From Clostridiaceae bacterium (GTDB lineage Bacteria > Bacillota > Clostridia > DSM-8532), in assembly GCA_012518025.1 (NCBI GenBank), contig JAAYTP010000056.1:1-48812 (forward strand): DNA of 48,812 bases. The letters are read 5' to 3'. Below, one piece after another: positions 6,136-28,425 of this stretch. Numbering within the stretch: the stretch's first letter is position 1; each line of letters opens with the position of its first letter. A model generated the notes under the pieces. That model had not been told where the DNA came from. It saw only the letters and a program-made list of their open reading frames with translations, and did no database searches. Made by a program: the position numbers and the translations under genes.

Positions 6136-7425
6136 ATGTATAGATTAAGAAATAACCTCATCAAAGCTGCGAGAGAACAGGCGTGCATTGTCCTATGCAT
6201 TGTCATGCTGGCGACAATGGCAGGCCTGTTCTCTTCCTGTATGCATCGGTATATGAATGATTCTTCCGCCAATCAGACTTCTGAGGAAATTGCAGCGTCC
6301 CCTCATGAATCAGCGCCCCCCGTTGAAAGCGGGTTACCTGAGGAGGTTCCGTCAATCAGGCCTGAGCCAGGTGAGAATACGGTGGCACCTGGCAATCAGC
6401 CTGAGGAAGTGGGGGATGAGCCTTCGCAGGTACCAGAGAAGAAGCCCTATACCACACCTTCGCCAGATCCTGTCCCTTCAGAAGAGCTGTCTCCTTCCGC
6501 AATTGTCAGTCCCTACACACCTTATACATGGGATCAGATGATGGAAGAGGCACAGAAGCTCAGGGAAGCTTATCCGCAACTGATCACACTTTCTTCAGCG
6601 GGAATGTCGGTTGAGGGCAGGGATCTTCTGGTGATCAGCCTGGGAAAAGGGGACAGGAAGATCCTGCTTTGTGGGGCACATCATGCCAGGGAGTATATAA
6701 CCAGCAGCTTTTTGATGAAGATGGTGGAAACCTATGCCGAAAAGGCTTCCAAAGGGCAGCTCTTAGGGGGTTATGACCCGGGAGAGCTTCTGAACAGGGT
6801 GACGTTGGTTGTGGTTCCCATGGTGAATCCCGACGGGGTCAATCTGGTCAATAACGGGCTAAAGACGGCGGATCGCCGGGAAGAGGTTGAAACAATGGCC
6901 ATGGTGGGATCGGGCTACCGGGCATGGAAGGCCAATATCAACGGAGTGGATCTGAACAGGCAGTATCCCGCCTGTTGGGAGGAGAAACTTGATGATGTGG
7001 GGAGGCCGGCCTCTGAAAACTACAAGGGGACTGCCAGTGCCACCGAACCCGAGGTCCAGGCCATGATGACCCTTTCCCATTCCCATGAGTTTGTATTGTC
7101 AGCATCCTTCCACACCAAGGGAGAAGTGATTTACTGGGCTGACAGCGGTACAGTGAATGAGATCAGCGGAGCAAAGGCCATTGCCCGGCGCATTGGAAAG
7201 CTGACCGGGTATGATCTGATGCCCGTGTCTGAAGAGCCGTCAGTTTATGGTGCCGGATTTGAGAACTGGTTCAGGCAGGAGTTCTTAAGACCGTCCTTCT
7301 GCATTGAGTTAACCCCGAGCGACGGCTCCGATGTGCCCCATGATGATACGAAGTTTGATGTATTGGTTTGGAAAAAGGCAAGATATATCGGGCTTCTTTT
7401 AGCCGATGAAGCGCTTAAACGGTAA
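6136..7425 (+). CDS. Exported zinc carboxypeptidase, peptidase family M14
   Basis: Predicted surface metallopeptidase of 429 residues. A basic N-terminus and hydrophobic segment (about 17-34) end at Cys35 in FSSC, which resembles a lipobox, so it is probably a lipoprotein. A Pro/Glu/Ser-rich spacer runs to about residue 125. The catalytic domain follows, with zinc ligands His183 and Glu186 in HARE, the third ligand His326 in SFHTKG, the substrate-binding Arg275 in DLNRQ, and catalytic Glu391 in CIELTP. M14 enzymes with this layout in spore-formers include gamma-D-glutamyl-meso-diaminopimelate peptidases acting on peptidoglycan stem peptides; a protein substrate is also possible. It begins 30 bases after purL, so it may be cotranscribed, but the functions look unrelated. 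Confidence 0.9.
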   Translation: MYRLRNNLIKAAREQACIVLCIVMLATMAGLFSSCMHRYMNDSSANQTSEEIAASPHESAPPVESGLPEEVPSIRPEPGENTVAPGNQPEEVGDEPSQVPEKKPYTTPSPDPVPSEELSPSAIVSPYTPYTWDQMMEEAQKLREAYPQLITLSSAGMSVEGRDLLVISLGKGDRKILLCGAHHAREYITSSFLMKMVETYAEKASKGQLLGGYDPGELLNRVTLVVVPMVNPDGVNLVNNGLKTADRREEVETMAMVGSGYRAWKANINGVDLNRQYPACWEEKLDDVGRPASENYKGTASATEPEVQAMMTLSHSHEFVLSASFHTKGEVIYWADSGTVNEISGAKAIARRIGKLTGYDLMPVSEEPSVYGAGFENWFRQEFLRPSFCIELTPSDGSDVPHDDTKFDVLVWKKARYIGLLLADEALKR

Positions 7426-7541
7426 CACAGACTTTATCTCATTCACACAGGTGTTTTAACGCCTTTATCGCAATGTGCCCTTGTTTTACGGGATCCCTTC
7501 ATGCATCTCACATCTCACTTCCCGCATCCCACATCCAGACT

Positions 7542-7616
7542 GTCATTGCGAGCGAAGCGCGGCTGAGCGCGGCGATCTACGAGATTGCTTCGTCGGCTTT
7601 GCCTCCTCGCAATGAC
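7542..7616. repeat. Dispersed palindromic repeat, copy A
   Basis: A 75-base element bounded by perfect inverted ends, GTCATTGCGAG at 7542-7552 and its complement at 7606-7616. GAAGC/GCTTC segments inside let it fold into a long hairpin. It shares most of its sequence with the element at 28342-28414. It lies between the convergent carboxypeptidase and propeller genes. It encodes nothing; it resembles the small non-autonomous palindromes common in clostridial genomes. A pyrimidine-rich stretch (7513-7537) lies beside it and has a counterpart beside the other copy. Confidence 0.8.
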
Positions 7617-7634
7617 ATACTACTGTTCCCTGCA

Positions 7635-9446
7635 TTATTTAATGCGTACGCCGAATATCTTCTGAGCGTAGGAACCCACCACGGCCATATTGCCGTAAAC
7701 AGCCGGCGAGGATTCGATATTTGCTCCCAGTGATACCACATCAAGATCCTCTCCGGTTTTCGGGTCAATGAGATGCATATCACCGTTGGCATCACAGAAC
7801 AGGACATAGGTCTTGCCGTCAGAACTCATAAAGTCAACCGGCGAGCTCCAGCTATAGACCGACAGATCCCGAACCCATACCTCTTCACCGGTCTTCTTGT
7901 CCAGGGCCACCAGCTTACCGTCCATTGATGATCCGGTAAAGCATATGGGGTATATGACCAGATTGTCTATATCGTTCTTTCCAATAATGGGCGTTGACAG
8001 TACGCCGCCGTTAATATAATAACGGTAGTAACAGGTGTAATCCTTCTGCCAGACCAGTTCCCCTGTCAGGGCGTTGATCTTTCTTATACTGGCAGGGGCA
8101 GTAGTCCTGTTGGTATTGGCACAGCGCTTATCCACCTCATTGGCGGTGTAGATGAACACACCATCTTCCTCTTCCTCAATGACCATGGTGCTGTCGGTGT
8201 CATCCTCGGCATCGAAGATCCATACCGGTTCCAGAGAATTGATGTCCAGGCACTGGATGGTTCCGCCGTTATCGGAGACATACATAAGGTTCCGATAAAA
8301 TGCCGCTGAGCTTTCAATCCCCTGATCCGAACTGTTGGGACCGTATGAGGACTTATATCGGTACTGGGTTATCTCCGGGTTTACAGAAATGGTGCCGGAG
8401 GCAGGGTTGAAGCTGGTATTCATTCTAATCTTATTGATCATTCCATTTTCCATGGGCTGGATAAGGGTATCGGTCTGCCAGTTCAGCATGGGCGATGAAT
8501 CCATGGCTCCCCAGTTACGGTATGCATTGGGATCGTTGCCCGGAAAGGTAAAGATTTCGGTCTGGTCTATGAGGTTGATAACCCGGAACTTGAACTGGGT
8601 GAACTGACCGTTGTTTTCCCGTATACCCATACCGGTGTAGAGCAAAGGATACCCTCTGGGGTCAATCATACCGGTACCTTTTATAGGGTAGCCGATTCTT
8701 ATCTTTTCACGGGTGGGTTGGCCTGTTTCAAGATCCAAGAAATAGATATTGCCGTCCATGATCGGGTAGATCACTTCCACCAAATCCTTGTTCTTCATCT
8801 CAGGATATATGTTCATGAGGTTTTTGACATCCTCGGGCCAATGAACCAAAAGTGGCTGCCCCGTCCAGCCTGAACCTGGCCAGAAGCTGTTGGCGGCTAC
8901 TATTGCGCCTGTATCCTGGCTCCATACGATTTCAAGCTTCTTCTCCACCACATCGGCTGTCCCGTAGGAGGCGGAATTCCTGTAGTTATTACCACGAAAA
9001 GCTGTAATGCCTTCCACCTGAGAATAGGCCCTGTCCGATGCGAAGGCAAGGGTATAGTCCGGAACATATGCCACGGGCTTCCCGTTTTGGAGAACCTGGT
9101 ACTGGATGGTGGCACCATCGGCATATTTCTTGATGACAGCATGGTTGTTGCCCTCGGTTCTGCTCACAAAGGAGGGGGGATCCTGCCAATCCAGAAGCAG
9201 AGCCTCCGGGTCTGTCACCTCGGGTGTGGGTGTGGGCTCAGGAGTAGGGGTTGGCGTAGGGGTTGGTGCCGGTGTCTGCGGGATTTTAGAAGGCGCCTCC
9301 GGTGTGGGCGAAACGCTGGCATTACCGTTTTCTACCCAAGGCAGCCTGTCCTGGAAAACCAATAGAGCAATAAGCACCACCAGGCTCACCACGAGCACTG
9401 TAACCAAAATTTTATAGTTTCCGCTTCTGCGTTCTCTTCGATTCAT
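7635..9446 (-). CDS. Membrane-anchored PQQ-type beta-propeller protein, paralogue 2
   Basis: Surface protein of 603 residues, last gene of a three-gene minus-strand operon. It has a short Arg-rich cytoplasmic N-terminus, one membrane segment (about residues 11-31), a Pro/Thr/Glu spacer (about 40-80) and a large beta-propeller-like domain. PQQ-enzyme-type repeats are visible: LDLETGQP, NALTGELVWQKDY, LDKKTGEEVW and DPKTGEDLDVVSLG. The tryptophan-docking pattern suggests a seven- or eight-bladed propeller, but no quinoprotein dehydrogenase catalytic residues could be assigned, so a binding or scaffold role is more likely than an enzyme. The start at 9446 is chosen over upstream codons because AGGAGG precedes it by six bases. 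It is closely similar along its length to the gene just upstream (9494-11311). Function unknown. Confidence 0.85.
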   Translation of the reverse strand: MNRRERRSGNYKILVTVLVVSLVVLIALLVFQDRLPWVENGNASVSPTPEAPSKIPQTPAPTPTPTPTPEPTPTPEVTDPEALLLDWQDPPSFVSRTEGNNHAVIKKYADGATIQYQVLQNGKPVAYVPDYTLAFASDRAYSQVEGITAFRGNNYRNSASYGTADVVEKKLEIVWSQDTGAIVAANSFWPGSGWTGQPLLVHWPEDVKNLMNIYPEMKNKDLVEVIYPIMDGNIYFLDLETGQPTREKIRIGYPIKGTGMIDPRGYPLLYTGMGIRENNGQFTQFKFRVINLIDQTEIFTFPGNDPNAYRNWGAMDSSPMLNWQTDTLIQPMENGMINKIRMNTSFNPASGTISVNPEITQYRYKSSYGPNSSDQGIESSAAFYRNLMYVSDNGGTIQCLDINSLEPVWIFDAEDDTDSTMVIEEEEDGVFIYTANEVDKRCANTNRTTAPASIRKINALTGELVWQKDYTCYYRYYINGGVLSTPIIGKNDIDNLVIYPICFTGSSMDGKLVALDKKTGEEVWVRDLSVYSWSSPVDFMSSDGKTYVLFCDANGDMHLIDPKTGEDLDVVSLGANIESSPAVYGNMAVVGSYAQKIFGVRIK

Positions 9447-9493
9447 TATAAACCCTCCTGAACTGTCAAGGCGATGGGGGCTTGACAACTTCT

Positions 9494-11311
9494 TTACTTT
9501 ATTCGGACTCCGTATATTTTCGGTGTGTATGAGCCAACAACGATCATATCATTGTAAACTGCCGGAGAGGATTCTATATTCCTCCCAAGGCTTATGACAT
9601 CCAGATCCTTTCCGGTTCTCGGATCAAAAAGATGCAGGTCGCCGTTATAGTCGCAGAACACAGCGTAGGTCTTACCGTCATTTGCCTGAAAGGCCACAGG
9701 GGAGCTCCAGCTGTAGGCCGCAAGATTTCTCGCCCATACCTCTTCGCCAGTCTTCTTGTCCAGTGCTACCAGTTTGCCGTCCATTGTTGATCCGGTAAAG
9801 CATATGGGGAAAATGATCAGGTCGGAGATGTCGTTCTTTCCCATGATGGGTGTTCCAAGGGAACCGCCGTTGATATAAAACTGATAGTAGCATTCATAGT
9901 CCTTCTGCCAGATCAGTTCCCCAGTCAGCGCGTTGAACTTGCGTATATTGCAGGGCGCTGTAGGGCTGCTGTTGTTCTGGCTTCTCTTGTCGATCTCATT
10001 TGCCGTGTACAGGAATACGCCTTCGGGTGTTTCCTCGATCACCGTGGTGGTATCGGTGTCATCACCCACATCATAGATCCAGACTGGCTTTAAGGTGTTG
10101 ATGTCAAGGCACATGAAGGTTCCGCCGTTATCGCAGAAATACATGTAGTTCTTATAGAAAGCGGGGGAGTTTTCGATACCCTGCTCGGGGTTTTTTGTAT
10201 CCTCATAACGGAACTTGGTAAGCTGCGGTGAAATGTCAATGGTCCCCGCTTCACGGTCATACCGTGTATTGAGTTTCACCTTGTATATCAGACCGTTTTC
10301 GGCTACTTCCAAGAACGTATCGGTCTTTCCGTCCACCAGGGCAGATGCATCAAAAGCACCCCACTCCCTGAAGGCCATGGGATCACGTCCGAAAATGGAA
10401 TACATGGGCTTCTGGTCGATCAGGCTGAAGATATTGTATTTAAACTCAGTAAATTTACCATTGTTCTCATTGATCCCCATTCCCGTATAGAGTATGGGAT
10501 AGCCTCTGGGATCCACCATACCGGTTCCTTTCATGGGGAAGCCTACCTCAATCTTGTCCCTGGTGGGCTTGCCGGTTTCCAGATCCAGAAAATAGATGTT
10601 GCCGTCCATGGCCGGATAGATGACCTCCACCAGATCCTTTTCCTTCATCTCGGGCTTGATGTTCATGAGGTTTCTTTCTGTTTCAGGCCAATGGACGATG
10701 AGGGGCTGCCCTGTCCAGCCCGTTCCAGGCCAGTAGCTGCCGTGAGCCGTGATGGCTCCCATATCATGAGTCCATACGATTTCCAGTTTCTTTTCCCTCA
10801 CATCCCGGGTTCCCCAGGAGGCTGTATCGCGGTAATGGTTACCCCTGAAAGCGGTGATACCTTCCAGAGCAGCGTACTGATCGGGAGTGCCGAAGGAAAT
10901 CTCGTAGTCAGGCTTATACCCGGTTACTGGCTTGTTATTCTGGAACACCCAATACTTTATCCTTCCATCGGGTGTCACAGAGGCCGATTCGGGAAAGGCG
11001 TTGGGTCCGTCGAAAACCGCCGGTGTTTGCCAGGAAACCTTAAGGATCGCAGTGTCGGTGCTCTCCTCGGGCATGGGCTCCGGGGTAGGCCAGGGCGTTG
11101 GTTCAGGGGTTGGGGTGGGTTGTTCGGAACTGCTCCCCGGTTGATAGACCTGACCGGAAGGGGTTGGACTTATATTATCCGTGGACCCGTCCCTGTTCCA
11201 GGGAAGACCGCCCTTGAATAAATATATGACTGCAGCCGCGATAAGGGTCAGCAGCAATATAAACATGGTAAACCTTGTCTTGTTAAGCCTGCGTCTTCTT
11301 CTGCGATACAT
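9494..11311 (-). CDS. Membrane-anchored PQQ-type beta-propeller protein, paralogue 1
   Basis: Surface protein of 605 residues with the same architecture as its neighbour at 7635-9446: an Arg-rich start (MYRRRRRR), one membrane segment (about 14-34), a Pro/Thr/Glu/Trp spacer (about 45-85), then a propeller domain. The two share long runs, for example GITAFRGN, GTGWTGQPL, DPRGYP and NIESSPAVY, showing a tandem duplication. PQQ-type repeats include NALTGELIWQKDY and LDKKTGEEVWARN. AGGAGG precedes the ATG by six bases. It starts 17 bases after the serine hydrolase stop and its own stop lies 47 bases before paralogue 2, which supports one transcript. BamB-like or ligand-binding roles are conceivable; none can be shown from sequence. 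Confidence 0.85.
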   Translation of the reverse strand: MYRRRRRRLNKTRFTMFILLLTLIAAAVIYLFKGGLPWNRDGSTDNISPTPSGQVYQPGSSSEQPTPTPEPTPWPTPEPMPEESTDTAILKVSWQTPAVFDGPNAFPESASVTPDGRIKYWVFQNNKPVTGYKPDYEISFGTPDQYAALEGITAFRGNHYRDTASWGTRDVREKKLEIVWTHDMGAITAHGSYWPGTGWTGQPLIVHWPETERNLMNIKPEMKEKDLVEVIYPAMDGNIYFLDLETGKPTRDKIEVGFPMKGTGMVDPRGYPILYTGMGINENNGKFTEFKYNIFSLIDQKPMYSIFGRDPMAFREWGAFDASALVDGKTDTFLEVAENGLIYKVKLNTRYDREAGTIDISPQLTKFRYEDTKNPEQGIENSPAFYKNYMYFCDNGGTFMCLDINTLKPVWIYDVGDDTDTTTVIEETPEGVFLYTANEIDKRSQNNSSPTAPCNIRKFNALTGELIWQKDYECYYQFYINGGSLGTPIMGKNDISDLIIFPICFTGSTMDGKLVALDKKTGEEVWARNLAAYSWSSPVAFQANDGKTYAVFCDYNGDLHLFDPRTGKDLDVISLGRNIESSPAVYNDMIVVGSYTPKIYGVRIK

Positions 11312-11328
11312 GGTATTCCTCCTGACTA

Positions 11329-12384
11329 TTATTCGGCTGGGGCTGCAGCGTATTCTTCAACGAAGTCATAGATCATCTTTGACAGTTCGGCTATCTTTTT
11401 GCAGGCTGTTCCAACGTCCACGTTATCGGTCATCACCGAAAGGACATACGGATGGGACGCAAATACGATTCCCGCATCATTGACGGTACGTGTCTGGGTG
11501 CCGATCTTGTGCGCCACAGGAACATGGTCGGGCAGAAGAGCATCGATACGGTCACGCCAGTCGGTGTTCTCCAGGTCCTCGATCAGCTTCTCATAGGCCT
11601 CAGGATTATTTAAATACCGCCTGTAGAGTTCCTGTGATGCGAGGGCAATATCATAGGGGCATGAACGATGCCGCCTGTCATAGTATACCACGCCGCCAAG
11701 GTCGACCATGTACTGGCGGATGTTCTCTATGTCCAAAAGCTCGATGATCATATTTATGCCGCAATTGTCGCTCTTTCTTATGGCAAGTTCCGCCGTTTTG
11801 AGGACTGTGTATTCTGTCCCGTAAGGGGAGTTCTGGATTATGCCCGTCCCATATTCAAGATGTTCAGGTTTGTACTCAAGGAGCATGTCAGGGTTCACTT
11901 CTCCCTCCTCCATCCTGATATACAGGAGCAGAACCATCGGCAGCTTGGTTGAGCTGGCCGCGATATACTCTTCCTTATCCTGAACCCCAAAGGACTCTCC
12001 GGTGGCAAGGTCTATGAAGGTCACGCCGTACCGTCCGGATTGCTGGCTGACAAAATCCTCTACCATCTTTTTGAGCTCATCCATCCTGCCGCTGGGCGGA
12101 AGTGACCCGATGGCTGGAAGGAAGCCATGGGATTCTGTATATGTGCCTTCAGGCTCGGGTGTAGGGGTTGGTGTAGGCTCCGGTGTGGATGTGGGTGAGG
12201 GAGATTCAGTCGCCACGGGAGGTGTGGATGTGGGAGTGGGTGTAACAAGGGCGCTGTTACTGTTATCATCACCCCTGAAGAAAACAAAGAACACTGCACA
12301 CGCAATCAATGCCACAAGAATCGAAATAACCCATGCTCTTCTTCTACGGTAAACTCTTTCATTCCTGAATCGGTAGGATCTCAT
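11329..12384 (-). CDS. Membrane-anchored class A beta-lactamase-fold serine hydrolase lacking the omega-loop Glu
   Basis: First gene of the minus-strand operon, 351 residues. Residues 1-17 are Arg-rich, about 18-36 form a membrane anchor, and about 47-80 are a Thr-Pro/Glu-Pro spacer. The catalytic domain carries SSTK (Ser144, Lys147), SDN at 205-207 with the 61-residue spacing of class A enzymes, and KIG at 293-295 where lactamases have KTG. No ExxLN motif exists between SDN and the next helix; the omega loop is short and the deacylating Glu is missing. It is therefore probably not an efficient beta-lactamase; a D,D-peptidase, an esterase or a penicillin-binding sensor is more likely. Its link to two propeller proteins suggests a shared wall-associated complex. 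No BlaI/BlaR pair is nearby. Confidence 0.85.
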   Translation of the reverse strand: MRSYRFRNERVYRRRRAWVISILVALIACAVFFVFFRGDDNSNSALVTPTPTSTPPVATESPSPTSTPEPTPTPTPEPEGTYTESHGFLPAIGSLPPSGRMDELKKMVEDFVSQQSGRYGVTFIDLATGESFGVQDKEEYIAASSTKLPMVLLLYIRMEEGEVNPDMLLEYKPEHLEYGTGIIQNSPYGTEYTVLKTAELAIRKSDNCGINMIIELLDIENIRQYMVDLGGVVYYDRRHRSCPYDIALASQELYRRYLNNPEAYEKLIEDLENTDWRDRIDALLPDHVPVAHKIGTQTRTVNDAGIVFASHPYVLSVMTDNVDVGTACKKIAELSKMIYDFVEEYAAAPAE

Positions 12385-12821
12385 GCCAATTCCTCTTTCA
12401 TCCTTTGATCAGCCCATGATAATAATCAATATCAATAGGACATTCGATGTGTTGTAGCACAAAAACCATCCTCATTATATCCTTTGGTGCCTGTTTTAAG
12501 ACTGATTCCAGCCCATTTGCAAAAAGACAAAGCACATGGCGATGGATGTTTTTGCGCGATATTATTATTATAATAAAGACAACTGCCATTGTCCACTGTA
12601 TACCCGTACCTTCATGTTCTGCTAAAGCCGTTCAGCATGCAGGAAGGGTTCTAAAAGAAACAATATTTCCACAGATTACTGGATAACCTTCCCACTTATT
12701 AAATACTTCCGAAAAAACGGGGTCTTTTGTCGGTAAATCCCCCATCATTGCCGTTATGGTGTATAATTATCGTAATCCTCAATTAAATGCGGCTCCGTGG
12801 GCATAGGGCAAAGGTGTACAG
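12385..12821. other. Divergent intergenic region between the surface operon and the MATE gene
   Basis: This 437-base stretch separates two divergent genes and holds no convincing coding frame. A TATAAT on the minus strand (12474-12479) could serve the surface operon, and a TATAAT on the plus strand (12762-12767) could serve the MATE gene; neither has a good -35 box. A run of TTA/TAA repeats lies near 12560-12575. An open frame of 79 codons at 12447-12686 has no ribosome binding site and an unlikely composition. Confidence 0.4.
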
Positions 12822-28333: not shown

Positions 28334-28341
28334 ATAAGTAT

Positions 28342-28414
28342 GTCATCGCGAGTGAAGCGAAGCTGAGCGCGGCGATCTACGAGATTGCTTCGTCGCGTTG
28401 CTCCTCGCAATGAC
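28342..28414. repeat. Dispersed palindromic repeat, copy B
   Basis: A 73-base element closely matching 7542-7616. The left end reads GTCATCGCGAG, one base off the inverted right end CTCGCAATGAC (28404-28414). The internal part GCTGAGCGCGGCGATCTACG is identical to copy A. It could form a long hairpin in a transcript. Confidence 0.8.
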
Positions 28415-28425
28415 GTAACCGAATT

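Follow-up and report, generated by a model that had tools for sequence, protein, structure and literature searches.

The Locus Encodes a Tethered Hydrolase and Two Tethered Propellers

Three neighbouring genes on the minus strand of the window, i.e., the whole stretch of 48,812 nucleotides that was analyzed, encode a serine hydrolase (HYD) and two propeller proteins (PR1 and PR2). The open reading frames were found where the first-pass annotation had placed them, and the measured intergenic gaps of 17 bp (HYD-PR1) and 47 bp (PR1-PR2) agreed with it. The strong ribosome binding sites that it had reported are AGGAGG sequences ahead of the ATG codons of PR1 and PR2; the latter made an alternative start of PR2 at the TTG at 9488, taken from the list of open reading frames, unneeded, because AGGAGG precedes the ATG at 9446. 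The features are compiled in Table 1.

Table 1. Features of the HYD-PR1-PR2 locus and degenerate fused genes of family f39. Positions refer to the window unless another locus (L) is named.
Feature	Position	Strand	Description
HYD	11329..12384	-	351 aa; membrane-tethered SxxK serine hydrolase, class-A-β-lactamase fold, PBP-A-like
HYD catalytic motif S144-S-T-K147	11944..11955	-	S144 and K147 invariant in alignment
HYD motif S205-D-N	11764..11772	-	invariant in alignment; gone from degenerate fused copies
HYD motif K293-I-G (KTG equivalent)	11500..11508	-	invariant in alignment
PR1	9494..11311	-	605 aa; membrane-tethered 8-bladed BamB/PQQ-type propeller
PR2	7635..9446	-	603 aa from ATG at 9446; second tethered propeller
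Sigma-A-type promoter-like site	12567..12595	-	TGGACA-17-TATAAT, 11/12 matches, before HYD
Predicted 5' leader, ~175 nt	12385..12560	-	inferred from promoter and HYD start codon
Dispersed palindromic repeat	7535..7625		separates the convergent genes PR2 and M14; might act as terminator; outside module
M14 zinc carboxypeptidase lipoprotein	6136..7425	+	Pfam M14, E 2e-35; frequent neighbour
Pseudoenzyme fused ORF	L059:627-3137		without Ser/Lys/SDN/KxG
Pseudoenzyme fused ORF	L091:549-3056		without Ser/Lys/SDN/KxG
Pseudoenzyme fused ORF	L060:3027-5609		without Ser/Lys/SDN/KxG
Pseudoenzyme fused ORF	L061:1353-3926		without Ser/Lys/SDN/KxG

All three proteins have the common architecture described before, i.e., an Arg-rich start, a single hydrophobic helix, and a Thr/Pro/Glu-Pro spacer, and the proline content of the spacers is 27-35%. 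The anchor helix of PR1 comprises residues 11-32 in the AF2 model, and the anchors of both propellers are positive-inside.

Hexamers of the TGGACA/TATAAT type and their 17-bp spacing were also kept upstream of HYD in two further members of the genus (L006, L007). The letters of the spacer differ, and thus the conservation is beyond chance. Judging from the gene spacing and this genus-conserved promoter-like site, it is likely that HYD, PR1, and PR2 are located on one transcript. The predicted leader of HYD matched no Rfam family, and within the genus only the promoter hexamers look conserved. The palindromic repeat downstream of PR2 is of the CGCAATGACA type, for which 51 matching places were found in the 2.0-Mb genome; a further copy lies at 28341-28417 of the window.

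HYD Resembles PBP-A

A penicillin-interacting serine hydrolase fold had been proposed for HYD, and a match to the Pfam family Beta-lactamase2 with an E value of 2e-41 was indeed obtained. The motifs were analyzed in an alignment of seven orthologues (Table 1); S144 and K147 were present in every HYD that was checked, with the exception of the degenerate fused copies described below. In the omega segment, which precedes an SCP motif, no conserved Glu was found, and the nearest acidic position is occupied by D, E, or S in relatives. HYD thus has the SxxK, SDN, and KTG-type motifs of class A β-lactamases, but not their Glu166 in the omega loop, and it scored only 80 bits with the NCBIfam class A model, the cut-off of which is 200. 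Because of the missing omega glutamate and the low score with the curated model, HYD was not classified as a β-lactamase. An AF2 model of HYD was discarded, because it had a pLDDT of 51 and was built from only 7 sequences.

When the PDB was searched with the HYD family profile, 3cjm and PBP-A (2j9o, 2j7v) outranked every lactamase, and 3cjm was the top-scoring solved relative across the whole domain (E 5e-26). The substrates of PBP-A are stem peptides ending in D-Ala-D-Ala. Because the motifs are kept, the omega glutamate is absent, and 3cjm and PBP-A are the nearest solved relatives, HYD looks like PBP-A, and by its sequence it shares the characteristics of this type (lactamase fold, SxxK/SDN/KxG, no omega glutamate). 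PBP-A has been described as a DD-carboxypeptidase and DD-endopeptidase, with the absent omega glutamate as the key difference to class A lactamases (PMC11189452). The substrate of HYD is probably a wall peptide.

PR1 and PR2 Are Paralogous Eight-Bladed Propellers

PR1 and PR2 matched PQQ/BamB families of Pfam above the cut-off, with E values of 1e-10 to 1e-13, as expected for the PQQ-type propellers that had been predicted. The predicted duplication was also verified, as the two are paralogues with 60% identity. The term "tandem" was appropriate for the two adjacent genes, but not for the proteins, each of which contains one eight-bladed propeller and not two. The eight blades, closed by a C-terminal strand, were counted by eye from the PQQ-type repeats. 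The AF2 model of PR1 had a mean pLDDT of 82, with values of about 90 for most of the propeller blocks, and the best Foldseek matches of this model were the designed protein Cake8, BamB, YxaL, and tetrathionate hydrolase. Conservation peaks in the blade at about residues 228-270, which suggests that a functional face might be located there. In addition, the motifs FRGN and DPRGYP are conserved in the N-terminal region of both proteins.

The first-pass annotation had noted the absence of dehydrogenase residues. In agreement with this, the vicinal Cys-Cys of PQQ dehydrogenases is not conserved (CC was found in only 1 of 29 PR sequences), and PR1 and PR2 reached at most 43 bits with the dehydrogenase models TIGR03074 and TIGR03075, the cut-offs of which are 480-833. 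For these reasons they were rejected as PQQ dehydrogenases. They have the eight-bladed PQQ-type propeller of BamB, but scored about 35 bits with the BamB equivalog TIGR03300 (cut-off 285), and were thus also rejected as BamB members. PQQ has been reported to have only a slight effect on the growth of Clostridium thermocellum, a result about the cofactor and not about PR-type proteins (PMC8002186).

HYD and PR Are Linked in the Family of the Window

The GTDB family of the window (f1) was sampled with 32 genomes, and PR was found in 30 of them and HYD in 21. For 19 of the 21 HYD genes, which belong to six genera, the next downstream gene on the same strand was PR, at a distance of 23-264 bp. The two exceptions were G017, where the contig ends at HYD, and G021, a real exception in which no PR was found. 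Wherever HYD was linked to PR in this family it was intact and the first gene of the operon. It adjoins the rplU-rpmA-obgE block in the window, and the same was seen in several other genera. The conservation of the genes as neighbours had been named beforehand as a point at which the proposal could fail; the HYD-PR adjacency was kept across genera, and in family f39 the two are fused. In L072, L086, and L089, divergent genes adjoin HYD on its upstream side, which by eye resemble those of a LytTR-type response regulator and of a sensor kinase.

Nine genomes of the sister genus g2 have retained PR and lack HYD, and several of these have the gene order M14-PR1-PR2 instead. In these relatives without HYD, the M14 gene immediately precedes PR1-PR2 in the same orientation, an arrangement that looks like the outcome of an inversion of the locus and a loss of HYD. 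In the two genera g1 and g2, the M14 gene is a frequent but not a constant neighbour of PR. It was rejected as a fixed fourth member, because it is located on another contig in several genomes, including G009, where it lies well inside the contig. The nearest solved relatives of M14 are carboxypeptidase T and not wall enzymes. The MATE transporter gene was also rejected as a module member, because it is not retained beyond near relatives.

HYD and PR Are Fused in Family f39

All nine PR-bearing genomes of family f39 encode the HYD and PR domains in a single open reading frame. Ten such ORFs of 762-881 aa were found, and Pfam detected both domains in the ORFs that were scanned. The genomes are draft assemblies, but nine genomes of three genera agree on the fusion. 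On the PR tree the fusions form one group (support 75). The catalytic residues are kept in six fused copies (L053-L058) and lost in the other four (Table 1).

The degenerate copies are in most cases accompanied by an intact enzyme. Genome G096 has the active fusion L054 in addition to the degenerate L091, and G147 has the active L053 in addition to the truncated L110. In G232 and G170 a degenerate fusion occurs together with a stand-alone HYD with intact motifs, which lies beside obgE, i.e., at the position that HYD has in the family of the window. In G123, besides a degenerate fusion, there is another PR, which is truncated by the contig end, and thus no active HYD is visible. In sum, dead or truncated fused copies were found in five f39 genomes, and in four of these a HYD with intact motifs is also present. 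Three fusions (L053, L055, L091) have a lipobox-like start, read by eye, and thus look like lipoproteins, which would place their domains outside of the cell.

Distribution in Clostridia

The class was sampled with 291 genomes from about 78 families. Only the best candidates were scored, and thus the counts are lower bounds: PR was found in at least 55 genomes, HYD in at least 28, and both in at least 25. PR was present in 25 of the 28 genomes with HYD versus 30 of the 263 others (Fisher test 8e-18, on lower-bound counts and inflated by shared ancestry); counted by family, with about 78 families, the co-occurrence had a p value of about 0.003. When 299 genomes from the phylum were sampled, the only PR match among the best candidates scored was in the genome of the window itself, so that, among the best candidates of both samples, no PR was found outside Clostridia. 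About ten sampled families have PR without a detectable close HYD, and HYD without PR was found in G021, G069, G269, and G281, showing that neither strictly requires the other. Of the co-occurrence across Clostridia that was to be checked, the linkage and the fusion thus held, while many propellers occur without HYD and some HYD occur alone.

In families f25 and f53, HYD and PR are distant from each other. An orthologous GntR gene (53-75% identity) adjoins HYD in f25 and PR in f53 and f15. HYD follows GntR and purB in f25, PR lies beside GntR and purB in f53, and PR lies beside GntR and an M19 dipeptidase gene in f15; the latter is also present upstream in f25. The simplest reading of these neighbourhoods is that they descend from one ancestral locus, which was later broken up. 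According to the PR tree, the duplication of PR1 and PR2 is older than the split of f1 and f25, and the PR pairs of the two families are orthologous, with opposite gene order. A signal peptidase (S26) gene comes after the PR pair in f25 (L064:4653-5234; equivalents in L062, L063, L065, and L066).

Proposed Function and Alternatives

An association of HYD and PR is highly probable. The genes for enzyme and propeller are kept together in relatives and are fused in one family, and thus the two very probably work together. The best explanation as a whole, to which we give a slight preference, is a tethered wall peptidase of the PBP-A type that forms one surface unit with positioning or controlling propellers. 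HYD would be an active acyl-serine peptidase of the SxxK type that lacks the deacylating glutamate and is attached to the external side of the membrane via a single helix and the Pro-rich spacer. Its most likely activity would be the trimming of peptidoglycan, at stem peptides that end in D-Ala or at cross-links. PR1 and PR2 would be non-catalytic eight-bladed propellers on tethers like that of HYD, and the matched tethers may keep hydrolase and propellers equally far from the membrane. By binding to the hydrolase and/or a wall polymer the propellers could position, stabilise, or control HYD, and it is probable that they are partners of this kind. The dead fused copies in f39 might be binding or regulatory subunits. 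A wall-binding domain was not identified in the HYD-PR unit. Hydrolysis of wall peptides is favoured for HYD by its relatives, and a sensing, scaffold, or editing role of the unit, as suggested in the first-pass annotation, is conceivable. Only tentatively can a wall-editing complex of Clostridia be envisaged, in which two paralogous propellers are built around one PBP-A-type peptidase and each genome has one active enzyme, accompanied by dead fusions with a binding or regulatory role.

The roles might also be reversed, with the propellers as main actors in polysaccharide adhesion or in a BamB-like folding and assembly of surface proteins, and HYD as an accessory maturation enzyme. PR is indeed commoner than HYD (at least 55 versus at least 28 of 291 genomes), BamB and YxaL are its nearest natural folds, a signal peptidase-type gene follows the PR pair in f25, and in some fusions the HYD domain is catalytically dead but PR was retained. 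This is nevertheless unlikely, because the HYD linked to PR in f1 is intact and leads the operon, and a HYD with intact motifs is also present in four of the five f39 genomes that have dead or truncated fusions. It is improbable that the unit senses the state of the wall or β-lactams and that the acyl-enzyme of HYD signals via the short cytoplasmic tail or via partners. Such a sensor would fit to the single-helix anchors and their conserved basic tails in the cytoplasm, to the receptor-like look of the pseudo-hydrolase fusions, and to the LytTR-type regulator gene, recognised by eye, that diverges from HYD in several genera of f1, but the tails have only about 10-16 residues and no signalling domain, the lipobox start of three f39 fusions (read by eye) leaves no cytoplasmic tail, and the regulator pair is not beside HYD in the window.

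HYD could also be a true β-lactamase or β-lactam resistance protein with the propellers as incidental neighbours, as both Pfam and NCBIfam assign it to the class A lactamase superfamily and a MATE efflux gene adjoins it in the window. The unconserved omega-loop glutamate, the 80 bits versus the class A cut-off of 200, and the ranking of lactamases behind 3cjm and PBP-A make this quite improbable; furthermore, the MATE neighbour is present in the near relative L006 and absent from the other genera examined, and the kept linkage to PR and the HYD-PR fusion speak against incidental neighbours. That PR1 and PR2 are quinoprotein dehydrogenases or PQQ binders is extremely improbable: PQQ-repeat matches in Pfam and Foldseek matches to quinoprotein dehydrogenases exist, but the vicinal cysteines are not conserved, the scores with the curated dehydrogenase models are well under the cut-off, and propellers that are not PQQ enzymes are the better fold matches.

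Comparison with Known Systems

A limited search of the open-access literature, with most subscription journals outside of its coverage, revealed no paper on the HYD-PR pairing and nothing relevant on a system of this composition, in line with the first-pass annotation. Firmicutes genomes commonly encode hydrolases with a class-A-lactamase fold but without the lactamase glutamate, and most of these have no assigned function. The role of such enzymes becomes more accessible through a fixed protein partner, which in one family is part of the same polypeptide, and the pairing may bear on the relationship between lactamases and wall peptidases.

The best-matched characterised relative of HYD is PBP-A (Tll2115) of Thermosynechococcus (PDB 2j9o/2jbf), which has the same class-A-lactamase fold with SxxK, SDN, and K(T/I)G, and also no catalytic glutamate in the omega loop. 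HYD differs from PBP-A by its Pro-rich tether and by KIG instead of KTG, and no propeller partner is described for PBP-A in the available part of the source. The putative β-lactamase 3cjm, a structural entry, is similar to HYD over the whole domain.

For the propellers, BamB/YfgL is comparable, as it is also an eight-bladed PQQ-type propeller at the outer face of a membrane, but PR1 and PR2 differ from it by the helix anchor, the Pro-rich spacer, and the N-terminal region with FRGN and DPRGYP. YxaL of Bacillus (7dxn) is likewise a PQQ-type propeller from a Gram-positive bacterium. YxaL is secreted (PMC6483160), whereas PR is anchored to the membrane and either linked with or fused to a hydrolase. 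The quinoprotein alcohol and methanol dehydrogenases share the propeller fold and the PQQ-repeat signature with PR, which, however, has no vicinal disulfide and no match to a curated model. The proposed unit gives a testable role for PQQ-type propellers in bacteria without an outer membrane, in which the annotation of such propellers as BamB or dehydrogenase is misleading.
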